Assembly: GCF_003325355.1 (NCBI RefSeq)
Contig: NZ_CP030850.1
Span: 4,147,501 to 4,211,500 of the forward strand
DNA from: Runella rosea
GTDB taxonomy: Bacteria > Bacteroidota > Bacteroidia > Cytophagales > Spirosomataceae
Direction: 5' to 3'
Length of the DNA: 64,000 nucleotides
The notes under the pieces were generated by a model. That model was not told the origin of the DNA. It worked only from the letters and a program-made list of their open reading frames with translations, and made no database searches. This document shows, piece by piece, positions 48,726-64,000 of this stretch. Each line of letters starts with the position of its first letter. The stretch's first letter is position 1. The position numbers and the translations under genes were made by a program.

Positions 48726-49340
48726 TTATTGATTAAAAAAATAAACTATCCCCAACGATGCCCGAAAAGTGCGCACATCGGGACGGTCTTCAAACCCCTG
48801 ACCGTTTGCTAAAAAGCTATTAAACTTCCCAAAAGTACCGCCAATCCGACCATTAATCGACAATGTAGGGGTTATAAAATAGTTTACGCCCCCTCCCAAC
48901 CATACCCCAGGGCCTTTCAACTGAAACTCGTAAAATCGACCATTCAATAAAACGGGCTTTATTTTCAGGTTTGTCAATGCGTATCCACCTTCTATAAACG
49001 GGCGCACTTTTTGCAATGTTCCGCCAAAATTAGCCCTTATGCCAGCAACTAGTGTTGCCATTTGATTGATGTCCCATTCTGACTTAAATTTTAGGGTTTG
49101 GGCTTCATATTGGGCAAATGCCTCAAAACGCTGGTTAAAACCGTATCCCAAACGCACCCCAACTCCTATTCCATTTGGATCTGATTCATCTAGTTGGTCA
49201 AAAAAAGTGGATGACCATTGAACAAGACTGCCGTACAAGTGCACGTTTACACCTTCAGTATTGGACTGAATATCCTGCGCACGTAGTAAAGTTGAAGCGG
49301 TCAGAAACAAGAGGGGCAATAGAATTATCTGTCGTAGCAT
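48726..49340 (-). CDS. Small outer-membrane beta-barrel protein
   Basis: This 204-aa protein has a signal peptide (ILLPLLFLTASTLLRAQ) followed by alternating strand segments, GIGVGVRLGYGFNQRFEAFAQYE, MATLVAGIRANFGG, VWLGGGVNYFITPTLSINGRIGG and the C-terminal FRASLGIVYFFNQ ending in a hydrophobic residue pattern typical of barrels. It starts 12 bp after the kinase gene and is the last gene of the minus-strand kinase/phosphatase operon. That placement ties an outer-membrane component to the phospho-signalling cluster. Function unknown. Confidence 0.8.
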   Translation of the reverse strand: MLRQIILLPLLFLTASTLLRAQDIQSNTEGVNVHLYGSLVQWSSTFFDQLDESDPNGIGVGVRLGYGFNQRFEAFAQYEAQTLKFKSEWDINQMATLVAGIRANFGGTLQKVRPFIEGGYALTNLKIKPVLLNGRFYEFQLKGPGVWLGGGVNYFITPTLSINGRIGGTFGKFNSFLANGQGFEDRPDVRTFRASLGIVYFFNQ

Positions 49341-49352
49341 TGTTTTAAAAGG

Positions 49353-51101
49353 TTAAAATGGAACGGTAAGAGTGGTACGAGTGGTACGTAGATTATTGAT
49401 GCGGCGGCCTTGCTGAAACACCACCTCATCGCTGGCTTTATCACTATATTCGGGGTATTTGATGCCTATCCATTGATTGTTAACCGCTTCAACGGCTTCA
49501 AATTGAACGGCTAAAAGTGCTTTTTGTGAATTGGAAGCAGGTCGAGCCGACGTAACGCGGGCCCGCACCCGAGCTCCTGTTGATACCACCATTAAACCAT
49601 CAATTTGAACGGGCGATACCGCTCTCAGCCAAACGATTTGCCCCGCCACCGCGTCCGATGAAATTGTTTGAGCGAACTCTACCGCAAAAGGCTCATTTTT
49701 CACTTCGACCGTTGCCATCCGAACGGGCACCTTGCGTTCTGGTTCTTTTGGTTTTTCTTCTTTTTCAACTGGCTTCGGCTCTTCCTTTACAGGGTTTTTA
49801 TCTTCTGGTTTTTCGTCCACTGGCACCTTCTTTTTCCCTGGGTTGGACGGAGTATTGTCAACAGGCTTTGAGGGTTTTTCAATCGGAAGGGCTGATTCTT
49901 GTTTAGGTGGCAAACGCACTTCCGCTTGAGCAATTATAGGAAGGCTGTCTTGTTTTTTTTCAATCACCCTGCTGACTACCATTTTTGTTGTGTCTTTTTG
50001 AACCAGACCAAACGTTGGTTCTTTACGGTCATCATCATTTTTATTTACGCCAACGAGCCAAAACCCAACAATTCCCGCCGCAATAACGATTGCTCCCAAC
50101 AATATCAATCCTTCCAAACTCAGCAGATTGGCCTTGAGTTGTTGTGTTCCAGATTGCCTCTTAGGTTGCGTGTCAGCACCCACCAACCGCGTAGGTGCCA
50201 CTTGCGGTTTATCAGTTTTAACATTTGCCAGACGAGTGGCGGGTAATGGTTTGGGAGTCGTATCAAAAATTTGGAGGTTAATCGGCCCAGGTGCAACTAC
50301 CAACGCCAATGCCTGCCGCAATTCGAAGGCTTTAGAAAATCGTTTTTCAGGTTTCTTTTGAAGCAGTATTTCCAGAATTTCGTCTATCTGTTTGGGCAAA
50401 TCGCCCACCCGAGTTCGTGCCGAAATGGGTTTTTTAGTCAGAATTTGGTTGATAAGCGTTGTATCTGTAGCGGGTTCAAATGGCAGTTTTCCCGTCAATA
50501 GTTCATACAATAATACCCCAACGGCGTACAGATCCGACTGCGCCGAGGGCTCCGCGCCATTCAATAATTCAGGGGCCATGTATTCCAACGTACCAACCAC
50601 CCTATCTACGCGGGTGAGGCGCTGACTGCCAACCATCCGCGCAATGCCAAAATCCATCAATTTAACCGTTCCTTCACGGGTGAGCATCAAGTTGGCGGGT
50701 TTGATGTCTCGGTGCAAAATTCCTTTATAATGTGCGTGCTGCAACCCATCAAGTGTCTGAATAACAATCCTGATGGCTGTTTCTAATGGCAGTTTTCCTT
50801 GCTTAGAGACCAAGCGCTCTAAAGTCATTCCGTCCACCAACTCCATCACCATCACGTTGTCGGATCGAACTTGAAGGAAATTGTATAACGTCGCCACATT
50901 CGGATGGTTAAGTTGGGCAGAAAGCACGGCCTCATTTCGAAATCGTTCCATGAATGTAGTGTCGCGCAACAAATGTGGATGCAACATTTTGATAGCAACA
51001 GAACGTCGAAGAAACGTATCGGTGGCCCGATACACCGTCCCCATACCTCCTTCGCCGAGGAGTTCTTCGATGTGATAGTTGTGAAGGGTTCGGCCAATCA
51101 T
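49353..51101 (-). CDS. Transmembrane Ser/Thr protein kinase
   Basis: This 582-aa Hanks-type kinase has a complete active site: glycine loop GEGGMG (16-21), Lys38 (AIK), HRDIKPANL with Asp132, DFG 150-152 and APE 176-178. A hydrophobic segment (about 329-352) then crosses the membrane. A Pro/Lys/Glu-rich linker (about 385-465) follows, then a C-terminal domain (about 470-582) that is probably periplasmic. There are no PASTA repeats, so the sensor domain is of another, unrecognised type. It lies in an operon with PP2C and a second kinase. Confidence 0.93.
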   Translation of the reverse strand: MIGRTLHNYHIEELLGEGGMGTVYRATDTFLRRSVAIKMLHPHLLRDTTFMERFRNEAVLSAQLNHPNVATLYNFLQVRSDNVMVMELVDGMTLERLVSKQGKLPLETAIRIVIQTLDGLQHAHYKGILHRDIKPANLMLTREGTVKLMDFGIARMVGSQRLTRVDRVVGTLEYMAPELLNGAEPSAQSDLYAVGVLLYELLTGKLPFEPATDTTLINQILTKKPISARTRVGDLPKQIDEILEILLQKKPEKRFSKAFELRQALALVVAPGPINLQIFDTTPKPLPATRLANVKTDKPQVAPTRLVGADTQPKRQSGTQQLKANLLSLEGLILLGAIVIAAGIVGFWLVGVNKNDDDRKEPTFGLVQKDTTKMVVSRVIEKKQDSLPIIAQAEVRLPPKQESALPIEKPSKPVDNTPSNPGKKKVPVDEKPEDKNPVKEEPKPVEKEEKPKEPERKVPVRMATVEVKNEPFAVEFAQTISSDAVAGQIVWLRAVSPVQIDGLMVVSTGARVRARVTSARPASNSQKALLAVQFEAVEAVNNQWIGIKYPEYSDKASDEVVFQQGRRINNLRTTRTTLTVPF

Positions 51102-51134: not shown

Positions 51135-51983
51135 TCAGGCAATTTCTTCGGTTGGGCGGAGGGCTTGCGGTGCTTCTGAAGAGAGCCGCTCAATCAATAA
51201 CACCGTGATATTGTCGTGTCCACCGCGTTGTTTGGCGGCTTCTACCAACTGCTGCGCCGATTCATTTAAGGTCGGTATGAGCATCAGTTGCGCAATTTCA
51301 TCATTGGTGAGATAGTCATACAGACCATCGGTACTGAGCAACAGGCGATCATCGTTTTCGAGAGAATGTGTCATCGCTTCAACATCAATTTCCACTTTGT
51401 TGTGGGTACCCATGGCGCGGGTAAGTACGTTTCGTTCTGGATGTTTTTCGGCTTCCAAAGGAGCAATAACCCCTTGCTGAACAAGCATTTGAACGTATGT
51501 ATGATCAGTTGACAATTGCAGAAGCTGACCATTTTTGAGCAGATATAATCGGCTATCACCGACATGCGCAATGTACAATTTAGCATCACACACCACCACC
51601 GCCGTGCAGGTTGTGCCCATGCCGCGCTGACGTGCATTGCGGCTTGCCGCCTGCCAAATGGCACGATTGGCTTTTGTAAATGCCAGAAACAAACTTTCTT
51701 CGGGTGTTTCTTCCCGTTGGTAATACGTTTTGGCAATGGTTTCAACCGCCATTTGAGAAGCAATTTCTCCAGCGGCGTGCCCTCCCATGCCATCTGCCAC
51801 AATCGCCAAAAAACCTTTTGATGTCCGTACTAACAAATCTGCCGGACGCACAAACCGCGCCGCGTCTTCATTGTTGGTACGCACACAACCTACATCCGAT
51901 ACCACCACGGCCCGTAAGTCGCTGAAAGATTCTGACGGGGAGGTGTCAGTTGCTTTATTTGATAACCATTTTTTCCAGAACAT
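51135..51983 (-). CDS. PP2C-family Ser/Thr protein phosphatase
   Basis: From the ATG at 51983 (MFWKKWLSNK) the product is 282 aa. All PP2C motifs are present: SDVGCVRTNNEDA, VADGMGGHAAGE with the metal Asp residues, GMGTTCTAVV, HVGDSRLYLL, LSTDGLYDYLTNDE and GGHDNITVLLIE. It has no membrane segment, so it is cytoplasmic and is the natural antagonist of the two flanking kinases. It starts 23 bp after the upstream kinase stop. The longer frame would add 32 residues and overlap that kinase. Confidence 0.95.
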   Translation of the reverse strand: MFWKKWLSNKATDTSPSESFSDLRAVVVSDVGCVRTNNEDAARFVRPADLLVRTSKGFLAIVADGMGGHAAGEIASQMAVETIAKTYYQREETPEESLFLAFTKANRAIWQAASRNARQRGMGTTCTAVVVCDAKLYIAHVGDSRLYLLKNGQLLQLSTDHTYVQMLVQQGVIAPLEAEKHPERNVLTRAMGTHNKVEIDVEAMTHSLENDDRLLLSTDGLYDYLTNDEIAQLMLIPTLNESAQQLVEAAKQRGGHDNITVLLIERLSSEAPQALRPTEEIA

Positions 51984-52006
51984 GGCACGTAGAGGTTCGA
52001 TGTAGG

Positions 52007-52891
52007 TCAATGATTTTTTGTTCTTATCCAACGTTTTACGGAGATTTTTCCCATAAAATCCGTGAAGGTATCCACCCATTCTGCAAGCGAAAATCCGTTG
52101 TCTGCTGGGCTTGTTAATTCTTGCAGCAGTTCCGCCGCCGTCATTCGATTGGCGCTATTGATTCGCAACAACTTATGAATGAGACGCTTGCTTCTTTTTG
52201 TCAAATGTGGAACCAATAAATCGGGGGAAGTGTACTGTCCCCGTTCAATTTTTAAGCGAACTTCCGTTTCGCTGCGACCGTCGAAAGGCAAATGCCCCGT
52301 CAGCATTTCGTAGAATAAAACCCCTAACGACCAACAATCAGACTGAATGCTTACTTTGCCGTGAAACTGCTCAGGAGCCATGTAATGCGACGTTCCGACG
52401 ATGTATCCTTCCTGCGTGAGTTTGGGCGTATAAGTCGATTTGGCGATTCCAAAATCCAACAATTTGGCAAAACTCTCACGATTTACTTTTACGTTTCCCG
52501 GTTTCAAATCCCGGTGGATGATGTGTCGTTCGTGCAAATAAATCACCGCCAACACAATCTGTTCCATTACCTTCCAGACAAACGCTTCGGGCAGTCGGCC
52601 TTGACGTTTGATGAGTTTTTCGAGCGTAATTCCTTCGACATATTCCATGATAATGCAGGGCGTACCGTTTTCAATCGTGTATTCGTAAAGGGCCGCAATG
52701 TGAGGATGTTGCACAGAAGCCTGAATGTAAGCCTCGTTACGAAAGCGGGCGGCTTGGTCGGCTCGGTAGAGGACTTTCACCGCCGCTGGGCGGCGAGAGG
52801 TTTGGTGTTGTGCCTGATACACTTCGCCCATTCCTCCCGAGCCTAGCCATTGCGTTAAAACGTAGCCTTTTATGTTTTGGCCTAATTGCAT
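52007..52891 (-). CDS. Soluble Ser/Thr protein kinase
   Basis: This 294-aa Hanks-type kinase is catalytic domain only. It has glycine loop GSGGMG (17-22), Lys39, HRDLKPGNV with Asp128, DFG 146-148 and APE 172-174. No transmembrane segment follows; the end is a short helical tail. It starts the kinase/PP2C/kinase/barrel gene set, 90 bp after the FHA-protease gene, and I found no separate promoter in that gap, so it may be transcribed from the operator A promoter. Confidence 0.93.
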   Translation of the reverse strand: MQLGQNIKGYVLTQWLGSGGMGEVYQAQHQTSRRPAAVKVLYRADQAARFRNEAYIQASVQHPHIAALYEYTIENGTPCIIMEYVEGITLEKLIKRQGRLPEAFVWKVMEQIVLAVIYLHERHIIHRDLKPGNVKVNRESFAKLLDFGIAKSTYTPKLTQEGYIVGTSHYMAPEQFHGKVSIQSDCWSLGVLFYEMLTGHLPFDGRSETEVRLKIERGQYTSPDLLVPHLTKRSKRLIHKLLRINSANRMTAAELLQELTSPADNGFSLAEWVDTFTDFMGKISVKRWIRTKNH

Positions 52892-52981: not shown

Positions 52982-54670
52982 TTATTCGCTTTTAGGCGTT
53001 TTTAACAATTCCATTCCGTACTTGATGGGGATGGCGAAAGAGATAATTCCCTGCCGAGCGTCGCCGCCACCCGCATAATAAATCCCGATGACATTTCCTT
53101 TTTCGTCAAACATCGGCCCGCCGCTGTTGCCGCCGCCCGTGGCGTTTAGGTCTAGTTGGTAGCTATCACCGAAACCTGATTGTTTGGTTGAAAATTCGGT
53201 GGAGCTTGCCACTACTTGCTGCACATGACCCGGCGAAGTAACGGGCGAAGCCACTTCAAACACCTCGGCATTGGGCTTGAAAGGGTCATTTGATTTACGA
53301 ACCACGCGCTGCTGCGGAGCACCGCCCGGATAGCCCATCACGATAATTTCTTCGCCCGCTTTTACCGAACCGTAATTGTCTTTGAGCGTCACGGGAGCCA
53401 GATTGTTGACATCCACCTTAATAAGCGCCACATCATGACTTTGTGAAGGCGTAATCAAACGAGCTTCATACGGCTGTGAGGTGTTGGCAAAGACTACTTT
53501 TAAGTATTTGTTGCGGCCTTCCACTTGCGCCGGGCGACCATCCACCATGGTAGCTTCCGAAGGCACCCAGCCAAAAATCTGTTCGGCACCCACGGTTGGT
53601 TCTTTGGCCAATACAGGTTGACCCGTTTTATCAAGCCCCTGCACCAAAAAGCCTGGGAAGTTGTTCCAAGCAAAGCCCGAATAGCGCGTTTTCCAAGCGG
53701 CGCCCACGTGGCGGTTGGTCAAAATCTGACCATCGGAACTTACTACAAATCCGCTGCCCGTTCCAGTAGAGCCCACGGGTAAGCCTACCAACGATTTTTT
53801 CTTGGTAACCAAATAAGGCTCGATGCCATTTTGGGTCTGCACAAACAGCGGACGGAATGTACCTTGCGCATCAGGGCGGTATTCATGATACAATTCTTCG
53901 TTTTCCTGCACTTCGTACAATTCCCACGAAATAAAAATCTTCACTACTTTATCGGTGTTGGCGGAAGCGATGGCCGCGGTAGAAATTGGCTTGCCCTGCT
54001 CTACTTTTTCCTGCAATGCCACCATTTGGATGCGTGCTTCTTCTTGTTGTTTTTGGAGCGCCTGATTGTATTTAGCATCCAGTTCCGCCTGTTCTTCTCG
54101 GGTCGAATTCCAGAAAACAAATCCTAAAGAGCCAAAAATCACACAAGCGGCGGCCATAGCAGCCCAAAGCGTACGACGAGATTTGCTGCGTTCGGTACTA
54201 ATTACTCGCTCAAATGTCTGCTTGCCAATGCCCGTTTTGATAGGCGTTGACTCAGAAACTTCCAACGGAACAAATTCATTGGTTGGTTTAACAACTTCTA
54301 CCAATCGAGTGGCGGGCATTAATTCGGCGGGACGCGGGTCAATGTCAAAAATAAAAGCGGGGCCATTGTTGCCGAGTTGGATTTCGTCACCTGGTTCGAT
54401 GGGAGTCTGTCCTTTTACGCGTGTTTTGTTGACAAAAATTCCGTTGCGGCTGTTGTTGTCAATCAATACAAAAGCCAGTGGGCCTTCTTTGACGATTTTG
54501 CCATGCTCGCGGCTCACAACCGTATCAATTTCAGGGTCGAACTGAATATCGCTCTCGTTTGAGCGGCCCAGCGTAAGTTCGTTATGACTGTTAAAATCAA
54601 ATTCTTCCACCTGATTTGCTTTGGCTCCCACAAGGTGACGAATGACGAATTGTTTGACGGTAGCGTTCAT
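52982..54670 (-). CDS. FHA domain / transmembrane / trypsin-like serine protease
   Basis: This 562-aa protein has an N-terminal FHA phosphothreonine-binding domain (about 25-110) with GRS (35-37), SREHG (53-57) and NGIFVN (76-81). A Pro-rich linker leads to a transmembrane segment (about 167-187) and a short coiled coil (190-215). The C-terminal half is a trypsin/HtrA-like protease with His321 (TNRHVG), Asp413 (SHDVALIKVD) and Ser516 (TGGGNSGGPM). The FHA part should face the cytoplasm and the protease the periplasm. This links kinase output to extracytoplasmic proteolysis. Sits directly upstream of the kinase set. Confidence 0.93.
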   Translation of the reverse strand: MNATVKQFVIRHLVGAKANQVEEFDFNSHNELTLGRSNESDIQFDPEIDTVVSREHGKIVKEGPLAFVLIDNNSRNGIFVNKTRVKGQTPIEPGDEIQLGNNGPAFIFDIDPRPAELMPATRLVEVVKPTNEFVPLEVSESTPIKTGIGKQTFERVISTERSKSRRTLWAAMAAACVIFGSLGFVFWNSTREEQAELDAKYNQALQKQQEEARIQMVALQEKVEQGKPISTAAIASANTDKVVKIFISWELYEVQENEELYHEYRPDAQGTFRPLFVQTQNGIEPYLVTKKKSLVGLPVGSTGTGSGFVVSSDGQILTNRHVGAAWKTRYSGFAWNNFPGFLVQGLDKTGQPVLAKEPTVGAEQIFGWVPSEATMVDGRPAQVEGRNKYLKVVFANTSQPYEARLITPSQSHDVALIKVDVNNLAPVTLKDNYGSVKAGEEIIVMGYPGGAPQQRVVRKSNDPFKPNAEVFEVASPVTSPGHVQQVVASSTEFSTKQSGFGDSYQLDLNATGGGNSGGPMFDEKGNVIGIYYAGGGDARQGIISFAIPIKYGMELLKTPKSE

Positions 54671-54769: not shown

Positions 54770-54863
54770 CAAAGTTCCTCCAAAAAGCCACGCTGGTAAA
54801 TCCGGAAACACCTACATTTTGGGTAAGGGGAAACCTGTATTTTGAAGTATAGGAAAACCTGTA
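54770..54863 (-). promoter_or_regulatory. Operator/promoter A: three palindromes plus -7 box
   Basis: Three palindrome-like sites occur at 54801-54816 (TCCGGA-AACA-CCTACA), 54824-54839 (TAAGGG-GAAA-CCTGTA) and 54848-54863 (TATAGG-AAAA-CCTGTA), 23 and 24 bp apart. On the minus strand the next elements are TTA-N19-GAACTTTG (box at 54777-54770), a weak promoter. Spacing and much of the sequence match operator B exactly. Confidence 0.8.
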
Positions 54864-54864
54864 G

Positions 54865-56670
54865 TTAGCCCAAAACCGTGGCGGCAAGCCGCCCGATATT
54901 GAGGGTACGAGCGTTTGAATCAATGATTTCGCGGTAAAGCCCTCCTGCCTCGTACAGCGTTTCATGGCTACCTTTACCAATGATTTCACCTTCCTGCATC
55001 ACATAAATTTGGTCAGCGTCCATGATTTGGCTGATGCTGTGCGAGATAATCAATACCGTACGATTTTTCTTGATGGCATCGATACTGTCTTTGATTTGCT
55101 CCGCCGTAATGGCGTCCAAACTTGCAGTGGGTTCGTCTAAGAAGATAATGGGTGGATTTTTGAGGAATAAACGCGCAATAGCAATCCGCTGCTGCTGCCC
55201 ACCCGACAGCGCTTTGGCTTCAGTTTGATAACCATTGGGCATCTGTAAAATTTGTTCGTGCAGACTCGCCTGTTTAGCAGCCGCTACGATTTCGTCTAGG
55301 GTGGCTTCCAATTTTCCGTAACGAATATTTTCTTCGATGGTACCCGAAAAAATATGGTTTTTCTGCATCACCAAACCCACATTTCGACGAATCCAGTGCG
55401 GGTCGTATCCCGTCAAGGGTTTTCCATCGAGCAAAATTTCTCCACGGGTTGGTGAATAAAAGCCCGCCAATAAATTCATGGCTGAGCTTTTTCCTGCCCC
55501 CGACAAACCCACCAATGCCGTTGTTTTTCCCGCTTCCAAATGCAGATTTACACCTTTTAAGGCCTGCTTTCCATTGGGGTAGACAAAATCAACGTCTTTC
55601 ATTTCAAACGTTCCCGCAAAAGATTTATGCACAAGATTCCAGTGATTTATCGTTTTGCTTTGGCTGTTTTCGAGATATGAGTTATTCTCAATCATGTCAA
55701 AAAAGCCCTCCGCGTAGGTGAGGGCTTCGCTGTATTCGTCATAAATGCGGTGAAGGTGCCGTACGGGCGCCGAAACGTTGTTGAACAACATCAAGTGCAG
55801 CAAAATCGCCCCGACGGTCATTTGTTGGTTCAGGACAAAGTAAATGGTGACCACAAAAACCATGACTACGCCTAATTGCTCCGCAATGCTTTTCAGGCCA
55901 TCAAAAAGATAATTGGTTCGATGGTGTTTTACTTCGCTGTCGGAGAGTTGTTGCGTTAATTTCCATTGGCGGCTTGTCTCGTATTCTTCTCTTACAAAAG
56001 ATTTTACGACAAAAATAGATTCAATAAGGTTAAAAAGTGTGTTGGCTTTTTCTTCACGAAACTGTTGAATATTTCGCCGAATCAGTTTTTGCCGCTTGGA
56101 TTGTTCCCGACTGATGAGCGCATAAAGTGGCATGATGAGGGTAGCACACACGCCCACCCAAATGTTTTTTTTGTACATCAAAGCCAAAGCCAACAGCGCA
56201 TTCGCGAACATGGGCACAATGTCGACAAACAAATTTTTGACGGTTTTGGTCAGACTCTCGATGCCTTTGTCGATCCGTTTTTCAAGCTTTCCAATTTGGT
56301 TTTGCGAAAGCGCAAAAAAAGACAAATGATACGACACCATTCGCTTGATGGAGTAATTGTGTAAATCGGCCGCCAGGCGAAACCGCAGGCGGTCGCTCAA
56401 GAATTTTTGCCCCAATTGTACCAGCAAATTGATAATTTCTTTGGCAAACAAAACCAACACTAGCCCGCCAACTATCCAAGCGATTTGTTGTTGGGTTTGT
56501 TTTTTTTTATCAAGAATATCCTGAACGGTATTGACGGTATATTCCATCACCAAAGGAGTTACTTGTGCCAATAAAGCCCCTACTCCCGTGAGAATAAAGG
56601 CACCGATTAAACTCTGACGATACTTTTGAACAAATGGCCAAAGCTTTTTTATAAGGGTGACGGTCGACAT
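54865..56670 (-). CDS. ABC exporter, fused permease-ATPase
   Basis: This 601-aa half-transporter has an N-terminal six-helix ABC_membrane domain and a C-terminal nucleotide-binding domain. The latter has Walker A GLSGAGKSS, signature ALSGGQQQRIAIARLF, Walker B IIFLDEPTASLD and the H-loop ISHSIS. It should work as a dimer. The start is the ATG at 56670 (MSTVTLIKKLWPFVQKY); the longer frame adds 44 residues with no family support. It follows the two-TM protein gene by 49 bp, so both are probably expressed from promoter B. The cargo is unknown. Confidence 0.92.
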   Translation of the reverse strand: MSTVTLIKKLWPFVQKYRQSLIGAFILTGVGALLAQVTPLVMEYTVNTVQDILDKKKQTQQQIAWIVGGLVLVLFAKEIINLLVQLGQKFLSDRLRFRLAADLHNYSIKRMVSYHLSFFALSQNQIGKLEKRIDKGIESLTKTVKNLFVDIVPMFANALLALALMYKKNIWVGVCATLIMPLYALISREQSKRQKLIRRNIQQFREEKANTLFNLIESIFVVKSFVREEYETSRQWKLTQQLSDSEVKHHRTNYLFDGLKSIAEQLGVVMVFVVTIYFVLNQQMTVGAILLHLMLFNNVSAPVRHLHRIYDEYSEALTYAEGFFDMIENNSYLENSQSKTINHWNLVHKSFAGTFEMKDVDFVYPNGKQALKGVNLHLEAGKTTALVGLSGAGKSSAMNLLAGFYSPTRGEILLDGKPLTGYDPHWIRRNVGLVMQKNHIFSGTIEENIRYGKLEATLDEIVAAAKQASLHEQILQMPNGYQTEAKALSGGQQQRIAIARLFLKNPPIIFLDEPTASLDAITAEQIKDSIDAIKKNRTVLIISHSISQIMDADQIYVMQEGEIIGKGSHETLYEAGGLYREIIDSNARTLNIGRLAATVLG

Positions 56671-56719
56671 GAACTTTAGGAGTGAGAAGTGAGGAGGTAG
56701 GACGGGCCGCGTACTAATT

Positions 56720-58051
56720 TTACAATTTCTGCATAAACTCACGGGTGTTGAGCGTGGCATCTGATTCGTAATCATAAAATAGCTCAACCATAGAAGATAC
56801 AATGTGCGGGTCGTCAGTGAGAAAAGCGGTCAATTTTGAAGGGCGGCCGCTGGAGTTGGAGCCACTCCCCAAAATACACACACACAAGGTTTTCTGAATA
56901 CCAGGGGTGTTTTCACGAGGAGTGCTTATGAACAATTGAATGGGCAGCGTTTTGTTGACTTTGGTAACGCGAACCCCCAAGTCCAGCATTTCGCGCATGG
57001 CCTGCGAATGTTGGTTGTAGAGTTGACGAATCAAAACCGACTGCGCATCGGTTTCTTCCTGTCCGTTCATGGCAATCATAAAACGGTTGTGGTGGGGTAC
57101 GGTTTCATTAACGGCCAGCGCCGAATTGCTACCACTACGGTAGGTTTCGACCAAGACATGTTCGTTGAATATTTTGCCTAAATATTTTAAAAAGGCGTGG
57201 CTTGAACCTTCATTTTGGTCATTGAGCGTTACAAATTCTACACGGGCACCGCTGCCGATTTTTTGCAGATAAATGGCTGTTTCTTTGAGTTTATTTTCAA
57301 CATCGGTACAATCCCGCAATAACGCTTCGGCACGACGAGCGTAATCAAATTGGGTAGCGTGGCGCAGTTCATGGGGTTTTAAATCGGCGTGTTTGGCTAC
57401 TAAATCCATCCGAAAAGGGGAGATTGCCTCAATTTTGGCCGTATTTGACAGCACCAATAAGCTATTTCCCTGTATTTTTGAAAGTTCTATTACTTTATCA
57501 ATACCTTCCAACACATCTTTGGTCCCTTCCATGAGTTGCACTTTCTCGTTGACCTTGCCGCTCACTTCCATCATGATGCCGTTCAGCGACTTGGTCGCCT
57601 GCACCAACAACCCTGTTTGGGTTTTAATGTGGTCCATTTCTTGTTGATTGAGGCGTTCTTTTTGCCGATTTATTTTCTCGGTAGTAACCGTCAAAAACAA
57701 CCCAATAAAAATCCCGACAATGCCCCCCACCAAACCAGCGATGTCCAACTCACGAATGTACTTATCAATGCCTGGGCTGAAATAATTTTGGGGGTCAGTC
57801 CACTTACCATTGATAGATTGAAAATCAGACAGGTAGTGCATCGTATCGTAAAAAATATAATACCACTTTAAGCCCAAAGAAATGAGCAAAACAATGAAAG
57901 GAATCAGAAAGAAGAACGTAAAAAGCAGGGTGTGTTTTTTGGTAATATCAAACAAAACCGCAAAAAAGCCCTCATCATGGGCATTGTTTGGATGAATTTG
58001 AGGCTTAGAATGCTCTATTGAGGCAGCGTTGGATTCCATGAGTGAAAACAT
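56720..58051 (-). CDS. Uncharacterised two-TM membrane protein with coiled coil and soluble C-terminal domain
   Basis: I do not recognise this family. The product is about 443 aa. A cytoplasmic N-terminus is followed by TM1 (LLFTFFFLIPFIVLLISLGLKWYYIF) and, after an 80-residue loop, TM2 (AGLVGGIVGIFIGLFLTVTTE). A long amphipathic helix or coiled coil (KINRQKERLNQQEMDHIKTQ onward) leads to a globular alpha/beta C-terminal domain with GSGSNSSGRPSKL and LTDDPHIVSSMVELFYDYES. That end recalls PLD-like regulatory domains without an HKD catalytic motif. Start 58051 (58039 also possible). It is the first gene after operator B. Confidence 0.7.
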   Translation of the reverse strand: MFSLMESNAASIEHSKPQIHPNNAHDEGFFAVLFDITKKHTLLFTFFFLIPFIVLLISLGLKWYYIFYDTMHYLSDFQSINGKWTDPQNYFSPGIDKYIRELDIAGLVGGIVGIFIGLFLTVTTEKINRQKERLNQQEMDHIKTQTGLLVQATKSLNGIMMEVSGKVNEKVQLMEGTKDVLEGIDKVIELSKIQGNSLLVLSNTAKIEAISPFRMDLVAKHADLKPHELRHATQFDYARRAEALLRDCTDVENKLKETAIYLQKIGSGARVEFVTLNDQNEGSSHAFLKYLGKIFNEHVLVETYRSGSNSALAVNETVPHHNRFMIAMNGQEETDAQSVLIRQLYNQHSQAMREMLDLGVRVTKVNKTLPIQLFISTPRENTPGIQKTLCVCILGSGSNSSGRPSKLTAFLTDDPHIVSSMVELFYDYESDATLNTREFMQKL

Positions 58052-58075
58052 TTTTATCGTTATGATTGAACGATA

Positions 58076-58169
58076 CAAAGTTCCTTCAAAACCCAATGCC
58101 CGTAAATCCGGAATCACCTACATTTAGAATACAGGAAAACATACATTTAGACGTACAGGTTTTCCTATA
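58076..58169 (-). promoter_or_regulatory. Operator/promoter B: three palindromes plus -7 box
   Basis: Sites are 58107-58122 (TCCGGA-ATCA-CCTACA), 58130-58145 (TACAGG-AAAA-CATACA) and 58154-58169 (TACAGG-TTTT-CCTATA), again 23 and 24 bp apart. The minus-strand promoter is TTA-N19-GAACTTTG (box 58083-58076), 31 bp from the first site, the same as in operator A. Confidence 0.8.
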
Positions 58170-58181
58170 GAGAAGCAAAAA

Positions 58182-58487
58182 TCAAAGAATTCCTGACCAA
58201 CCAAGCCCAAAACTCACCGCATTGGCAACCAATCCAATGAGAACGCTTTTTGGCCAATTTATACTCCATAAACTCCTTATCCACAGGCTTTCCACGAGTG
58301 CAACGAGTAGCTCTAAAAAATAAATATTACCCCCAAATTGATAATAATAGTAGACAAGAAACGTCCAGGTCGATACGTTAATCAGGGCACCTAGCCCAAC
58401 AATAGATGTCAGGTGGTCATTACGTCGCAAAAACAACCAGAGGATGGGAATCTCAACCAGCCACGTTTTGAGAAGATGAATCCACAT
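58182..58487 (-). CDS. Small polytopic membrane protein, 101 aa
   Basis: The real start is the ATG at 58487 (MWIHLLKTWLVEIPILWLFL); the longer frame upstream of it is an out-of-frame reading of the preceding 57-aa gene. The protein is almost wholly hydrophobic, with about three membrane segments (WLVEIPILWLFL, LGALINVSTWTFLVYYYY and SVLIGLVANAVSFGLGW) and the charged loop LLVALVESLWIRS. It starts one base after the stop of the small upstream gene, so it is translationally coupled. I do not recognise a named family. Confidence 0.75.
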   Translation of the reverse strand: MWIHLLKTWLVEIPILWLFLRRNDHLTSIVGLGALINVSTWTFLVYYYYQFGGNIYFLELLVALVESLWIRSLWSINWPKSVLIGLVANAVSFGLGWSGIL

Positions 58488-58488
58488 G

Positions 58489-58662
58489 TCAGTGCTTTTG
58501 GCGAGCTCGGCGATACCGCACAAACAGCAAAACGGCAATGGACAAAACACCAACCAATAATAATACATCAGAAACTGGTGAGCCAGTTGGCGTTTGTACG
58601 AGGTCTGCAAAAGCAACTCGGGAAGCAGCCATCAAAAAAAGAAACAAAGGAAGCTTTTTCAT
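58489..58662 (-). CDS. 57-aa small membrane protein, paralogue of 58723-58908
   Basis: ATG at 58662 and TGA at 58491-58489 give a 57-codon frame: signal-like start MKKLPLFLFLMAASRVAFAD, a short Pro/Thr/Ser linker, a hydrophobic helix (DVLLLVGVLSIAVLLF) and a basic tail VRYRRARQKH. It matches the adjacent 61-aa protein in layout and tail (both contain RYRRAR). The signal peptide, linker, TM helix and Arg-rich end resemble a C-terminal sorting-signal layout. The overlap of the next gene's ATG with this gene's stop region supports the frame. Short length makes it easy to miss. Confidence 0.8.
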   Translation of the reverse strand: MKKLPLFLFLMAASRVAFADLVQTPTGSPVSDVLLLVGVLSIAVLLFVRYRRARQKH

Positions 58663-58722
58663 AAAGGATAGTTAGGGTAAACATTTAATAACCAATACAT
58701 TAAAAGCATATACATCCCCAAA

Positions 58723-58908
58723 TTAAGGCTTGTTTCGAGCGCGACGGTAACGGATATAAAATAACGCAGCTATGGCCACCACTCCTGCCACTAACAACAA
58801 TTCTGTACTACTATCATTGGATTGACTCGATTGATTATAATTCCCAACCTCATCAGCCCAAACCGACGATACCATGAATTGTGCAACCAGAAAAAATAAT
58901 TTTTTCAT
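58723..58908 (-). CDS. 61-aa small membrane protein
   Basis: A signal-like N-terminus (MKKLFFLVAQFMVSSVWAD), a Ser/Asn/Gln linker, a hydrophobic helix (ELLLVAGVVAIAALFYI) and a basic end RYRRARNKP make up the whole protein. Its ATG overlaps the stop codon of the upstream MFS gene (ATGA at 58905-58908), so the two are coupled. The paralogous gene at 58489-58662 follows. Such short proteins often act as regulators or partners of the membrane protein encoded beside them, which here is inference. Confidence 0.8.
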   Translation of the reverse strand: MKKLFFLVAQFMVSSVWADEVGNYNQSSQSNDSSTELLLVAGVVAIAALFYIRYRRARNKP

Positions 58909-59978
58909 GAATTGTAAAGGGTTTTATGAAGTTTGAACGCGTAGAAATATAATCCCCAAGCGCACAGTCCTAACAAGATTAATTGAGGTAAAAAATAAAT
59001 CTCTGACAGCAGCGAAGAATAAGGAATGACTCCACCCAAGGCAATCGCCAGGCCAAACGTTGCCCCGCTGATGGTAGCCGGCAGTTTTGGGAAAATCCGC
59101 TGCAAAGCCGTCACGCTCACCGGTGTAACCGACTGTAACAATCCAGTTCCAAGCATTAACCAGAATAATTTTCGATACCCCCACGACAACGCTGGAACCG
59201 CAACTGCCAAGGCGGTCAGTGTGTACAATCTCGCTCCCATGCGGTCGGCCAACCAACCTCCCACGAGTTTTCCAATCATGGCGGCCAAGGCGGTATAAAA
59301 CAGCCATTCGTATTGATGCGTATACAGTAATTGAACAAAATTCCAGACCGCCGACCGCATGGCAATGGCCGCCAGCAACAAAATCATGAGATAATCGTGC
59401 GTATCGAGCAGCGGTTGCTCTTTCCATTGAGTATCCCTTTTTTGAGCGTCAGGGAATTTTGCCCAACCCAAAAACAATATCACCAAGGCTAAACCCGCCA
59501 TCAGAAAATACATAACCCACTGCCAATGAAGGGCCGCCGCCCATCCGCCCAATGCCAACCCCAAAACCCCAAATGCCGAAAACATTCCCACAAAAACCGA
59601 CTTTTGTGGGAAACTCATCAACGTAGTACCTCCGCCAGCCACGTGAAAAAAAGCTGAACTGATACCCGCCAACGCCGTAAAAAACCAAACATTTGTCGTT
59701 GAAAAGAGAAGTGCGGCAATCATGGCTGCCAATGAAATCACCGAAGCGGCCCGAAACTGACCGACTCGGTCCAGCCATATACCCGCAGGAAGCTGACCGC
59801 CAAAAGCCAATACATTGTAGAGCATTACTACTCCTGCAATCTGCCCAAAATCGGCCCGATGCGCCAAGCCTCCCATCAAATATCCCGCCGCCGCATCAGA
59901 CAAACCATGCCCGAGCCCTAAGGCAAAAACCGTAGGTTGACAGTGTTGAAAAAGAACGTTTTTTGGGACGAAAAACAT
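58905..59978 (-). CDS. MFS transporter
   Basis: This 357-aa member of the major facilitator superfamily has about 11-12 transmembrane segments. Conserved loop elements include GLAHRADFGQIAGVVMLYN, the motif-A-like GQLPAGIWLDRVGQFRAA between TM2 and TM3, and its second-half counterpart GKLVGGWLADRMGARLYT. It is shorter than typical drug exporters (400 aa). The substrate is unknown. Its stop overlaps the start of a small membrane-protein gene. A TAAATTTG -7 box lies 70 bp upstream. Confidence 0.85.
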   Translation of the reverse strand: MFFVPKNVLFQHCQPTVFALGLGHGLSDAAAGYLMGGLAHRADFGQIAGVVMLYNVLAFGGQLPAGIWLDRVGQFRAASVISLAAMIAALLFSTTNVWFFTALAGISSAFFHVAGGGTTLMSFPQKSVFVGMFSAFGVLGLALGGWAAALHWQWVMYFLMAGLALVILFLGWAKFPDAQKRDTQWKEQPLLDTHDYLMILLLAAIAMRSAVWNFVQLLYTHQYEWLFYTALAAMIGKLVGGWLADRMGARLYTLTALAVAVPALSWGYRKLFWLMLGTGLLQSVTPVSVTALQRIFPKLPATISGATFGLAIALGGVIPYSSLLSEIYFLPQLILLGLCAWGLYFYAFKLHKTLYNS

Positions 59979-60046
59979 GGGTTTAGGCTAAGTTTTACTT
60001 TGGGCATCAAGTTGTTATCAAATATCACATAAATGCTGAATTTAAG

Positions 60047-60054
60047 CAAATTTA
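60047..60054 (-). promoter_or_regulatory. -7 element TAAATTTG of the MFS operon
   Basis: On the minus strand TAAATTTG matches TAnnTTTG and lies about 70 bp upstream of the MFS start. No -33 TTG is seen at 19 bp. Confidence 0.4.
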
Positions 60055-60136
60055 CCTAACTGAAATGCATGGCATAGACCTTTTGAATTTCTTTTTTCAT
60101 TCAGGAATCCCGCCGCCACAACTCAGCACTAAGACA

Positions 60137-60175
60137 TCCATAATTACCTATATTTTAGCTATAGGAAAACCTATA
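60137..60175 (+). promoter_or_regulatory. Operator C: perfect palindrome upstream of histidine kinase genes
   Basis: TATAGG-AAAA-CCTATA (60160-60175) has perfectly matched 6-bp arms. A second CCTATA half site lies exactly 23 bp upstream (60147-60152). It precedes a poor -7 box (TACGTTTTG, 60203-60211) and the sensor kinase start at 60248. It belongs to the same motif family as operators A and B. The kinase operon may therefore be autoregulated. Confidence 0.7.
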
Positions 60176-60247
60176 TATTTGGACTATCGGCTTGGAAATG
60201 ATTACGTTTTGTACTTATTTTCCCTATTCTACAATCAAGGGAAGTCG

Positions 60248-62293
60248 ATGAAGAAATGTTTGTTTTGCTTTTGCTGTCTTTGCTTTTCGGCTCACGCCCA
60301 AAAAACGGATTCTTTGCTACGAGTATTGGCAAAAACAGCGGTTGATACCAATAAAGTAAACATTTTGTACGACCTAGGACGGGCTTTTTGGCTTCAGGGA
60401 AACGATTCATTGGGAAAAGTGTATTGTAATCAATCAGTCTTGCTGGCGCAAAAACTTCATCATTTACGCGGCGAAGCCAAAGCAAGGTTACAATTGGTTC
60501 GAATTGAAAATGAATACCTTACCGACCTAAACACCGCTTACGCCCACCTCGACGCCACCTTAAAAATTGCAAAATCTCTTCCTGATAAATCATTGGAGGG
60601 ACAAGTGTATTTTCGTCGGGCCCAACTGTATGAGAGTTTTTTCGAGAAACAATCACAGGTAAATCAACTGCTTAACAAAGCCTTACAATTGTTTATTGAA
60701 AACAAAGATAAAGTCTGGCAAGGTACCGTATATGCCGAAATGGCTCTTTTGCTCATCAGCGACGGTAAATACGCCGCCGCCATAGACTTGATGCTCAAAG
60801 CGCGCAGACTTCAGGAAGAAACCAATGACCTGATGGCCTTACGCTCTACCATTCCCAATTTAGGGAGTTTTTACCGCGAAATGGGCCGCTACGAAAACGC
60901 CTTGGCCTGCTTCAAAGAAGCCGAAGTCATTGCCCAAAAACTTAATGACGAACGCCTACGGGCATACATTTTTAGCCAACGCGCCGAGATTTTTGAAAAC
61001 CAGGGTAAATACAAAGAAGCATTGGATTCCTATCAACGCGCGGCCAAAATCCACGAAATTTCGAAGGCAACTCAGTGGTTGCCAAGGGCCTACGGGCGAA
61101 TTGGCGGAGCGTATTTTAAACTAAAAGAATACGGAAAAGCACTGCAATACACCCATGCTGCCGATAGTTTATACAAAAGCCAAATAGACTCCAACGAATC
61201 CTTGGACCATCTTTCACAAATCAATTTCGGCAAGATTTATTTGGTTTTTAAACAATACAAAAAAGTGATTTCGTACGCTCAAACTGGGTTGGAATGGGCG
61301 GCGGGATCTGAGCCACCATTGCGCAAGGAAATGGCCGAATACCACCGTCAACTGGCCGAAGCTTATGAATCGTTGGGGCAATCTCAAAAGGCGCTTTTTC
61401 ATTTAAAAAACTATAAAGCCGAATCAGACAGTATTCTCAACAATGAAGCACTCCAGAAAATTACCGTTTCTTCGATGACCTATGAATTTGAAAAACAACA
61501 ACAAGCCAACAAACTTCGTATCCAAACCCTTGAAAACGAACAACTTACCCAAACGCGCAACATTCTTATTGGACTTTCTCTTTTGGGGATAGTAGGATTG
61601 GTGTTTGTGTTGTGGTCTAATCGTAGGTTAAAAATCAAAAATAAAGAACTGAAAACGAAAAATCGAGAAATTGAAGAAGCACTTTTCAAGGGACAAAAAA
61701 TTGAACGCAAACGCGTAGCTTCCGAACTTCACGACAACCTCAATACCAAACTTGCCGCCGTCAGATGGCATTTGGAAGCCATGCAAGCCGAAGACTTTAA
61801 TCCTTTTAACCAAAAGATTCACAGTCGGTTGATTGACATGGCCAATGATGTTTACGCCGATGTCCGGTTAATTTCGCACAATATGCTCCCAGCCGAACTA
61901 GAAATCCATGGACTGGTATCTGCTTTACAAAAATTGGTGGAAAAACTGAACGTAAACACAAAAACCGAATTTCATTTAGTAGCCGATGCAGACCAAACGC
62001 GCCCTCCGTCGCAGGTAGAACATGAGCTTTATAACATCGCCATGGAATTGGTCAATAACGTGCTCAAACACGCCCAAGCCACAGAAGTGTGGATAAGTTT
62101 GAGCCAAACCGAAACCCAACTCTCGTTGACTGTCAGCGACAACGGCGTTGGAATGCCCACCGAAAGTCAAACGGAAGGAATGGGGATGCAAAATTTACAA
62201 AACAGAGTGGATGTTTTATCCGGAAAGCTAACGCTTGGCAGTTCACCCGAAACTGGCACCAAAGTGAGCGTTGAAATACCTATTCGATTATGA
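60248..62293 (+). CDS. TPR sensor histidine kinase (HisKA_3), copy 1
   Basis: From the ATG at 60248 (signal peptide ending SAHAQ) the product is 681 aa. A long periplasmic TPR array (about 25-420) precedes a transmembrane helix (about 438-460), a coiled coil, the HisKA_3 dimerisation/phosphoacceptor region ERKRVASELHDNLNTK with His495, and a HATPase domain with N box ELVNNVLKHA (600) and G1 DNGVGM (about 631). Such kinases usually phosphorylate LuxR/NarL-type response regulators. The upstream 61 codons of the longest frame hold operator C and are not coding. It overlaps the next kinase gene by 4 bp (ATGA). Confidence 0.93.
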   Translation: MKKCLFCFCCLCFSAHAQKTDSLLRVLAKTAVDTNKVNILYDLGRAFWLQGNDSLGKVYCNQSVLLAQKLHHLRGEAKARLQLVRIENEYLTDLNTAYAHLDATLKIAKSLPDKSLEGQVYFRRAQLYESFFEKQSQVNQLLNKALQLFIENKDKVWQGTVYAEMALLLISDGKYAAAIDLMLKARRLQEETNDLMALRSTIPNLGSFYREMGRYENALACFKEAEVIAQKLNDERLRAYIFSQRAEIFENQGKYKEALDSYQRAAKIHEISKATQWLPRAYGRIGGAYFKLKEYGKALQYTHAADSLYKSQIDSNESLDHLSQINFGKIYLVFKQYKKVISYAQTGLEWAAGSEPPLRKEMAEYHRQLAEAYESLGQSQKALFHLKNYKAESDSILNNEALQKITVSSMTYEFEKQQQANKLRIQTLENEQLTQTRNILIGLSLLGIVGLVFVLWSNRRLKIKNKELKTKNREIEEALFKGQKIERKRVASELHDNLNTKLAAVRWHLEAMQAEDFNPFNQKIHSRLIDMANDVYADVRLISHNMLPAELEIHGLVSALQKLVEKLNVNTKTEFHLVADADQTRPPSQVEHELYNIAMELVNNVLKHAQATEVWISLSQTETQLSLTVSDNGVGMPTESQTEGMGMQNLQNRVDVLSGKLTLGSSPETGTKVSVEIPIRL

Positions 62294-64000
62294 AAAAAAC
62301 CGTATGCTTCCTTCTTTTTTTTACCTTTTCCTTGGGTTTTATTCATGCTCAAAACCCACTGCTAGACAGTCTTATCCACCACATAAAAGACTTATCCACA
62401 CAAAAAGCCTCTAGCCAACGAGATACTAATATTATTTTGAGTCTGAGCTTACTGACCGAGCGCTCACTTAATATGGGCGATTCCCGTAATCAGTTTTTTT
62501 TGGATTCGTTACAACGTTTTACAAAAAAAACCAATTGGCCCAAAGGTTTAGGCTTACATGAGCGGGCTTTGGGAAAACAAAACGACGTGAAGGGAAACTA
62601 TACCGAAGCGCTCAAGCATTACACCAACGCTATTCAACTCCTCAAAAAAGCAGGAGGGGATTCGTTTGAACTGGCTTATGCTTATGTATTGGCCGCTTTT
62701 GTTTTAAACAATAATGGGTTGACGGACAAATGCATTGAGATGCTGAATGAAGCCCTTCCTTATGCCAAAGCCACTAAAAACAAGAACAATCTCTGCTGGA
62801 TTTATGACTTTCTGGGCGACTACAATTACTATGATTCATTTGGTATCAGGAATTACAAAAAAGCCCTGTTTTACTACAAAGAAGTGGAAAAAAACATTCC
62901 CTACACCACTAGCCCAACGCTAAAGGCCGATAATCCGCATTGTCTGGCCAATGTGTACATGAAACTCGGTGACGAAAAAAAAGCCAATGACTACCGCGAC
63001 AACGCCTTACGCATTGCCAAACATTACAACAACCGTGTTGTCATTTTTGCTACTTACGCCGATTTAGCCGACATTTATGAGCAACAAAAATCGTACGAAA
63101 AAGCCCTCGAATATCGCAAAGCTAGTCTTGAATATGCCCAAAAATCAGGTTGGAAAGAAATGGAATCGCGGGCCGAAAATTACATTTACCAAACATACAA
63201 GCGCACAGGCGACTACAAAAATGCCCTCAAATACTACGAACTTCATAAAACACACGAAGACAGTTTAGGCCGATTTTCGGTCCAAAAAGCCTACGCCGAA
63301 CTTCAAGCTAAGTACGAAGCCGAGAAACAGCAATTGCGTATCACCGATTTAGAAAATGAGCAATTAATTCAAACCCAAAATTTTCTAATCGGACTTTCTG
63401 TCTTAGGGGTATTGCTAACTTGTTTTATTTTCTGGTCCAACCGAAAGCTAAAGGCAAAAAATCAACAACTAAAAACCAAAAATCGCGAAATAGAAGATGC
63501 ACTTTTGAAAGGACAAACAATTGAGCGAAAGCGCGTTGCCTCAGAACTTCACGATAATCTTAACACAAAGATAGCTGCATTACGCTGGCGTTTGGAAGCC
63601 CTTGACACCTCAAAATACCCCGAAGCTGACCAAAAAATCCACGCAGGCCTTCTCCAAACCCTCGAAGATGTATATGCCGATGTACGGCTTATTTCGCATA
63701 ATTTGCTTCCGACCGAACTCGAAACGCAAGGGTTAGTAGCAGCCTTACAAAAGTTGACCGAAAAACTCAACGTCAATGCAAAGACTGTTTTTCACTTAAT
63801 AACCAACGGAATAACAGAGCGTCTTAACCCCAAAATTGAATATCAATTGTACAGCGTAGCCCTAGAATTGGTCAATAACGTACTCAAACACGCCCAAGCA
63901 CAACAAGTTTGGATAAGTATTTCCCAAAACCATGAAGTAGTCAGCCTGACTGTCAGCGACGACGGAGTGGGCATGTCTAACGTAGAAAAGGCCACGGGCG
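62290..64000 (+). CDS. TPR sensor histidine kinase (HisKA_3), copy 2, cut by window end
   Basis: The frame opens at ATG 62290 (overlapping the previous stop TGA) and stays open to the end of the window, 570 codons, so the 3' end is missing. It has a signal peptide (VCFLLFFTFSLGFIHAQ), TPR-type helices, a transmembrane helix (about 364-386), ERKRVASELHDNLNTKIAAL with His421, the N box ELVNNVLKHAQ (about 526) and DDGVGM (about 558). It is a close paralogue of copy 1, strongest in the kinase part. A response regulator gene is expected next but lies outside. Confidence 0.92.
   Translation, partial: MKKTVCFLLFFTFSLGFIHAQNPLLDSLIHHIKDLSTQKASSQRDTNIILSLSLLTERSLNMGDSRNQFFLDSLQRFTKKTNWPKGLGLHERALGKQNDVKGNYTEALKHYTNAIQLLKKAGGDSFELAYAYVLAAFVLNNNGLTDKCIEMLNEALPYAKATKNKNNLCWIYDFLGDYNYYDSFGIRNYKKALFYYKEVEKNIPYTTSPTLKADNPHCLANVYMKLGDEKKANDYRDNALRIAKHYNNRVVIFATYADLADIYEQQKSYEKALEYRKASLEYAQKSGWKEMESRAENYIYQTYKRTGDYKNALKYYELHKTHEDSLGRFSVQKAYAELQAKYEAEKQQLRITDLENEQLIQTQNFLIGLSVLGVLLTCFIFWSNRKLKAKNQQLKTKNREIEDALLKGQTIERKRVASELHDNLNTKIAALRWRLEALDTSKYPEADQKIHAGLLQTLEDVYADVRLISHNLLPTELETQGLVAALQKLTEKLNVNAKTVFHLITNGITERLNPKIEYQLYSVALELVNNVLKHAQAQQVWISISQNHEVVSLTVSDDGVGMSNVEKATG

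Follow-up and report, generated by a model that had tools for sequence, protein, structure and literature searches.

Which regulator reads the palindromic sites that recur at three promoters of a signalling gene cluster of Runella rosea? The cluster lies in the window analysed here, a stretch of 64,000 nt (contig NZ_CP030850.1, positions 4,147,501 to 4,211,500), and an earlier note on this DNA had ascribed the sites to one regulator shared by three operons: one for a protease with an FHA domain and Ser/Thr kinases, one for a two-transmembrane (two-TM) protein, hereafter TM2, and an ATP-binding cassette (ABC) transporter, and one for histidine kinases. From the sites themselves, their geometry, conservation, near-uniqueness in the genome and co-occurrence with a response regulator it follows that one two-component system very probably controls the FHA and TM2/ABC operons and its own kinases. 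We consider it likely that the site arrays serve as operators in a dedicated two-component regulon of Spirosomataceae that controls itself, and that they are read by the NarL/GerE-type regulator encoded next to the kinases.

Site arrays, their geometry and their uniqueness in the genome

Array A, upstream of the FHA-protease/kinase operon on the minus strand, comprises the distal palindrome TACAGGTTTTCCTATA (site 1, 54848..54863), the second site TACAGGTTTCCCCTTA (54824..54839) and a proximal site 3 with one good half, TGTAGG (54801..54816). A –33-like TTTA (54797–54800) lies at the edge of site 3, and the TTTG of the –7 box GAACTTTG (54770..54777) is 43 bp from the site start. Array B, upstream of the TM2/ABC operon and also on the minus strand, is built in the same manner, with TATAGGAAAACCTGTA (58154..58169), TGTATGTTTTCCTGTA (58130..58145), the proximal half site TGTAGGTGATTCCGGA (58107..58122) and the same –7 box at 58076..58083. 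Array C, located between the divergent MFS transporter and histidine kinase genes, contains a perfect palindrome (60160..60175) and a degenerate proximal-type site TATAGGTAATTATGGA on the minus strand (60137..60152), facing the MFS gene.

The site coordinates given in the earlier note are all correct, including the half site at 60147, which turns out to be a part of the second, degenerate site of array C. The spacings proposed to be identical in A and B measure 23 and 24 bp in both, the distance from the TRYAGG start to the TTTG is alike in the two promoters, and the –33 region is weak, as claimed, with the poor TTTA element directly abutting the inner edge of the proximal site in A and B. The assignment of all sites to the TATAGG-N4-CCTATA type holds exactly at 60160, with one mismatch at 54848 and 58154 and with three at 54824 and 58130, but fails at 54801 and 58107, where five of twelve positions deviate (counted by eye), so that only the CCTACA half matches. 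Similarly, three positions are indeed present in both A and B, but the proximal member of each triplet is a half site.

The arrangement was compared in 51 arrays, collected from matches of the model R1 (constructed from 11 arrays with their promoters from the own genome and seven relatives), from TM2 loci and from A promoters of FHA genes, leaving aside C-type arrays, those of genome G002 and those fetched later. A TRYAGG-type half-site is located exactly 43 bp from TTTG in 48 arrays, which is an upper estimate, since R1 contains this geometry and found most of the arrays; the next commonest distance, 32 bp, is seen 12 times, by chance. Site 2 precedes site 3 by 22 or 23 bp in 33 out of 33 cases, and site 1 precedes site 2 by 24–26 bp in the 18 arrays where site 1 can be recognised; hence, length varies between the sites, and not in the 4-bp core or in the interval from site 3 to the –7 box. 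Both halves are perfect in 18 of 26 second sites and in none of 26 third sites, and the core of site 2, read towards the gene, is TTTT in 19 of 26. The minimal unit is one palindrome plus a proximal half site, the third site being an extra of some promoters. If the –7 box is placed as in Flavobacterium psychrophilum, where it occupies –12 to –5 (PMC9723704), site 3 would be centered at about –43. A site of the presumed activator at a fixed distance beside the upstream core element, characteristic of class II activation, is thus seen in the 48 arrays, mostly selected by the model, and is absent on the kinase side of array C.

Loosely matching single sites occur at the level expected by chance. 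In the window, 19 palindromes with at most three mismatches are found against 14.84 expected, and 18 of 100 shuffles reach 19, so there is no enrichment. More demanding patterns stand out: three palindromes with at most one mismatch are observed (mean 0.06, maximum 1 in 200 dinucleotide shuffles), as well as two triples of half-sites spaced by 22–25 bp (mean 0.005, maximum 1 in 200 such shuffles), both patterns having been chosen after the sites were known. In the 7.16-Mb genome, just six places have at most one mismatch, and three of them belong to the window cluster. A single-site model yields 13 matches at E 0.12–8, all seven sites of the three arrays being intermixed with six others, and therefore single sites cannot be told from the background. 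On the contrary, R1 retrieves A at 3.9e-24, B at 1.1e-21 and C at 3.4e-9. Just three more matches are listed at E up to 10, one at 0.026 on the opposite strand of B and two at 0.56, with 150 of the 3369 first-look candidates scored. The genome-wide check for random occurrence called for by the earlier note, made here with arrays plus promoters, therefore gives convincing scores at these three places only. Judged by its arrays, the regulon of this genome is the cluster itself.

Conservation and co-occurrence with the adjoining regulator

Apart from the own genome, 58 relatives were searched for the FHA-protease, and 11 of them have a near full-length orthologue. The array precedes the FHA gene in all 11 relatives fetched, and the 43-bp distance is retained in 12 of 12 promoters, including that of the window. 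In eight Runella A promoters the identity to the window is 0.94 in the sites, 0.79 in the spacers and 0.70 in the 5′ untranslated region. The TM2 gene is preceded by an array in 24 of 26 named loci, from Runella, Dyadobacter, Larkinella, Arundinibacter, Emticicia, Spirosoma, Rhabdobacter, one Spirosomataceae metagenome-assembled genome (MAG) and two MAGs titled Gemmatimonadaceae. The latter two (L177, L178) have the TM2/ABC pair with no array at E up to 1; their pairs are 60–68% identical, pointing to transfer or misbinning. No loss of the motif, named by the earlier note as a ground for refutation, is observed among the examined Bacteroidota relatives that keep the FHA or the TM2 gene. In a Larkinella (L143) and in Rhabdobacter (L141) the array is retained although the TM2/ABC pair and the FHA cluster are on different contigs. 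In Arundinibacter, a gene of a small membrane protein sits between the array and TM2. There the kinase gene shares the strand of the FHA operon and comes after the outer-membrane gene, with the regulator gene convergent; a short contig of genome G025 shows the same order. Weak matches confined to the promoter part of R1 (positions 55–100) were found in four genomes, and the one that was read (L155) has no array.

The earlier note had predicted a NarL-type response regulator beyond position 64000, and such a gene is indeed found there, at 64104–64751 in window numbering (L005:604-1251), on the minus strand, convergent to the second kinase gene. The protein has a receiver domain (Response_reg, 5.1e-23) and a GerE domain (2.4e-16), both above the cut-off. 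Asp55 is invariant in 11 of 11 aligned sequences, and the likely start is an internal ATG, giving 215 aa, as most relatives begin there; the nearest solved structures are VraR, DesR, RcsB and NarL. Histidine kinase 1 has HisKA_3 (1.7e-07) and HATPase_c (1.4e-14) domains, and the kinase genes adjoin the regulator gene in the own genome and in relatives. Judged by sequence, the locus has the features of a NarL/FixJ-type two-component regulon, that is, a receiver with a GerE/LuxR helix-turn-helix domain, an adjoining HisKA_3 kinase and a conserved upstream inverted repeat. The half-sites presumably resemble the GerE/LuxR consensus, a likeness for which a search gave nothing usable.

To follow the arrays through the family, we used 200 genomes, own included, drawn evenly. 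Arrays at E<=1e-6 are present in 37 of them, and orthologues of the regulator with identity of at least 66% in 35, all 35 of which have arrays; the two array genomes lacking such an orthologue are G035 (62%) and G002 (a fragment in a decayed cluster). In a set of 59 genomes, again including the own one, strong arrays (E<1e-5) are found in 15, and the same 15 have a regulator orthologue with identity of about 60% or more (in G002, only a fragment), while the 22 genomes from other families in this set have no strong array. The association with TM2 is looser in one direction: of the 200 family genomes, 30 have a TM2 match at 1e-30, and in each of these an array lies 32–543 bp from the match start, and seven of the 37 array genomes have no TM2 match at this threshold. 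Several named loci come from genomes that also occur in the genome sets searched here, and some supplied sequences for R1, which means that the named loci are not independent of those sets.

Genomes with more divergent regulators add weak arrays. In G088 (60%) a weak array (1.2e-4), the best of its genome, lies between the kinase and FHA genes, and in G123 (55%) and G034 (51%) arrays at 0.002 and 0.0038, respectively, are the top matches of their genomes; all three are directly divergent from the kinase gene and no further than 2.7 kb from the regulator gene. G137 (55%) has no array at 1e-6, the only threshold applied to it. Among genomes with the best regulator match of 49–54%, the scan at E 0.05 covered G034, G018 and G013, yielding one match (0.043) in G018 and none in G013.

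Genes of the cluster and apparent changes of targets

The putative FHA operon comprises, all on the minus strand, genes encoding the FHA domain protein with a trypsin-like protease (52982..54670), a Hanks-type Ser/Thr kinase (52007..52891), a PP2C phosphatase (51135..52079), a Ser/Thr kinase with a C-terminal extension (49353..51101) and a beta-barrel outer membrane protein (48726..49340). TM2 (56720..58039) and the ABC transporter with membrane and ATPase parts (54865..56670, start picked by eye) are on the minus strand as well. The kinases with tetratricopeptide repeats (TPR) are on the plus strand: TPR-HisKA_3 histidine kinase 1 (60248..62293, start picked by eye) and TPR histidine kinase 2 (62290..64000, continuing to 64107 past the window end). 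TM2 is strongly conserved (61–90% identity in 18 relatives), yet it reaches the cut-off of none of the Pfam models and matches neither an NCBIfam nor a PADLOC family; its AlphaFold model is poor (mean pLDDT 49.6). As PADLOC matches of the kinases are generic and TM2 has none, a role in anti-phage defence was dropped. Taken together, the kinases and phosphatase, the FHA-protease, the outer-membrane protein and the ABC transporter may point to a response to the state of the envelope.

The earlier note regarded C as the operator of the histidine kinase operon. The array indeed adjoins the kinase, but it also faces the MFS gene (58905..59978, minus strand), and the possible –7 box of the kinase promoter, ACGTTTTG (60204..60211, plus strand), is uncertain, its TTTG being 48 bp, not 43, from the start of the palindrome (by eye). 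On the minus strand, the palindrome and the proximal-type site are oriented towards the MFS gene. In the Runella relatives L158 and L159 the MFS side has TTTG at 43 bp, and in G150 the MFS orthologue (56%) likewise has an array to itself, again with TTTG at 43 bp. The MFS gene is thus probably an additional target of array C. The idea that C is a remnant of a split two-TM/kinase array was abandoned once arrays were seen at the MFS orthologues of a different genus (L208) and of two Runella relatives.

The set of genes behind the arrays differs between genomes. G005 has no FHA match, while the regulator and TM2 with its array remain. The Runella genome G002 (L136, L137) has a decaying cluster, with the array and the start of the TM2 gene (by eye), no TM2 match, and fragments of the kinase and the regulator. 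DUF3592 proteins follow the arrays in L140 and L144 (above cut-off) and in L142 (below it). G035 has seven array matches (L145–L151), from 1.3e-11 to 0.0011, and in all seven cases the protein encoded next has a signal-like N-terminus (by eye; in L149, from an internal start). Out of six of these proteins scanned, two have type IX secretion tails above the cut-off and one below it, and the target set appears to have changed. The arrays of G129 are followed by genes for a protein of 2722 aa and for a probable lipoprotein of 427 aa (by eye). Hence, the G035 and G129 arrays probably stand before genes of secreted proteins. At two further loci (L154:6418-7392, L205:1647-4017), divergent paralogous kinases have weak arrays facing genes of small LytTR-type-looking proteins (by eye), perhaps representing sister regulons.

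Proposed mechanism, rival explanations and related systems

The claim of one regulator for three operons agrees well with the uniqueness and conservation of the arrays and with the co-occurrence of the regulator, binding and activation being predicted steps. The TPR histidine kinases (60248–64107) would phosphorylate the NarL/GerE regulator, whose dimers would fill one or two palindromes TRYAGG-N4-CCTRYA, mostly with the TTTT core. The proximal half site 22–23 bp downstream would be occupied next, possibly cooperatively, and the regulator bound there, 43 bp before TTTG, could touch RNA polymerase and substitute for a good –33 element, as in class II activation. Such a scheme would account for the results in an economical way. 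The predicted targets are the FHA-protease/Ser-Thr kinase/PP2C/outer-membrane operon, the TM2/ABC operon and the kinase genes, probably joined by the MFS gene, in putative operons as described above. We tentatively extend this scheme, with somewhat less than even confidence, to three general features of a family-wide regulon: a palindrome with a fixed half site that replaces the –33 element; an entire network of Ser/Thr kinases, phosphatase and FHA-protease placed under one two-component system; and targets that turn over between genera (mostly signalling and transport, and probably secreted proteins in G035 and G129), with the operator and the regulator constant.

Several observations weigh against these arrays being operators of the adjoining regulator, or limit the support for it. 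The genome contains 118 single sites with at most two mismatches, compared to 285 for the reversed control, and the genome searches scored only a part of the first-look candidates (150, 68, 20 or 15 per genome), with stricter filters above 40 genomes. The 43-bp count is inflated by the circularity of R1 noted above, and the three arrays without such a pair (L146, L150, L151) all belong to G035. The –7 box of the kinase promoter at C lies at 48 bp, away from the class II geometry, and on the MFS side there is no TTTG at 43 bp in the own genome, L156, L157 and G002. In G129, whose regulator is 64% identical, the weak arrays (2.3e-5) are separated from the regulator gene by 11 kb or lie on a different contig. 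Finally, the co-occurrence was computed for a single regulator, the NarL/GerE orthologue, and its counts include related genomes with kinship ignored.

The regulator gene has no array of its own at any reported R1 score, and this, together with arrays retained by TM2/ABC operons on contigs apart from the FHA cluster, would be expected if an unlinked transcription factor read the arrays and the two-component system were just one of its targets. We consider this unlikely, as arrays and the regulator co-occur nearly without exception in the 200 genomes, better than arrays and TM2, and weak arrays stand beside divergent regulator genes in three genomes. Somewhat less improbable, while still clearly disfavoured, is binding by the same regulator acting as a repressor, since a protein on the proximal site, which adjoins the –33 element, might compete with sigma and block RNA polymerase. 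The poor –33 elements and the near-invariant spacing from the –7 box (in 48 of 51 arrays, most of them selected by the model) fit better with an activating contact, since a repressor should tolerate more variation. That the repeats arise by chance or from some other constraint, e.g., coding, has a negligible probability: single sites with two or three mismatches do occur at the chance level, but the triples, their intergenic conservation in many genera and the stronger conservation of sites than of spacers do not fit it, and the genome scan contradicts it.

The preferred assignment, activation by the adjoining NarL/GerE regulator, has parallels in known systems. VraR is the closest solved structure to the regulator by sequence (2.6e-28), and the window kinase weakly matches the LiaS model (99.0 bits, cut-off 450), a likeness without established orthology. 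The VraSR and LiaSR envelope-stress systems autoregulate their own operons; they are Firmicutes systems, and their targets are other than those here. DevR/DosR is also of the NarL type, with the DevR structure among the regulator matches (2.7e-19), and its promoters have paired boxes, several per promoter, the proximal one at the –35 element overlapping the core promoter. It differs in phylum and sigma consensus, the core promoter in the window being of the –7 TAnnTTTG type (PMC9723704). Another parallel is FimS/FimR of Porphyromonas gingivalis, a Bacteroidota two-component system with a direct-acting regulator: FimR is reported to bind the mfa1 promoter and to act as an activator (PMC1974823). 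The targets of FimR are fimbrial, no operator sequence is seen for it in the excerpt of that paper, and the regulators are likened by description; the window kinase scores 73.4 bits with the NCBIfam FimS model (cut-off 600) and does not qualify as a FimS orthologue. In broad literature searches we recognised no paper on this operator or regulator, and the terms LuxR, response regulator and FHA do not occur in the available portion of a Spirosoma network paper (PMC10036542).

The arrays thus would define a compact regulon in Bacteroidota, a phylum in which, to judge from our limited literature search, few descriptions exist of operators for NarL-type regulators, and would tie histidine/aspartate signalling to a eukaryote-type Ser/Thr kinase module. 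The fixed distance to the TTTG-type –7 box may serve as a model for an activator working with the Bacteroidota sigma factor, and target genes would become predictable in further Spirosomataceae genomes.

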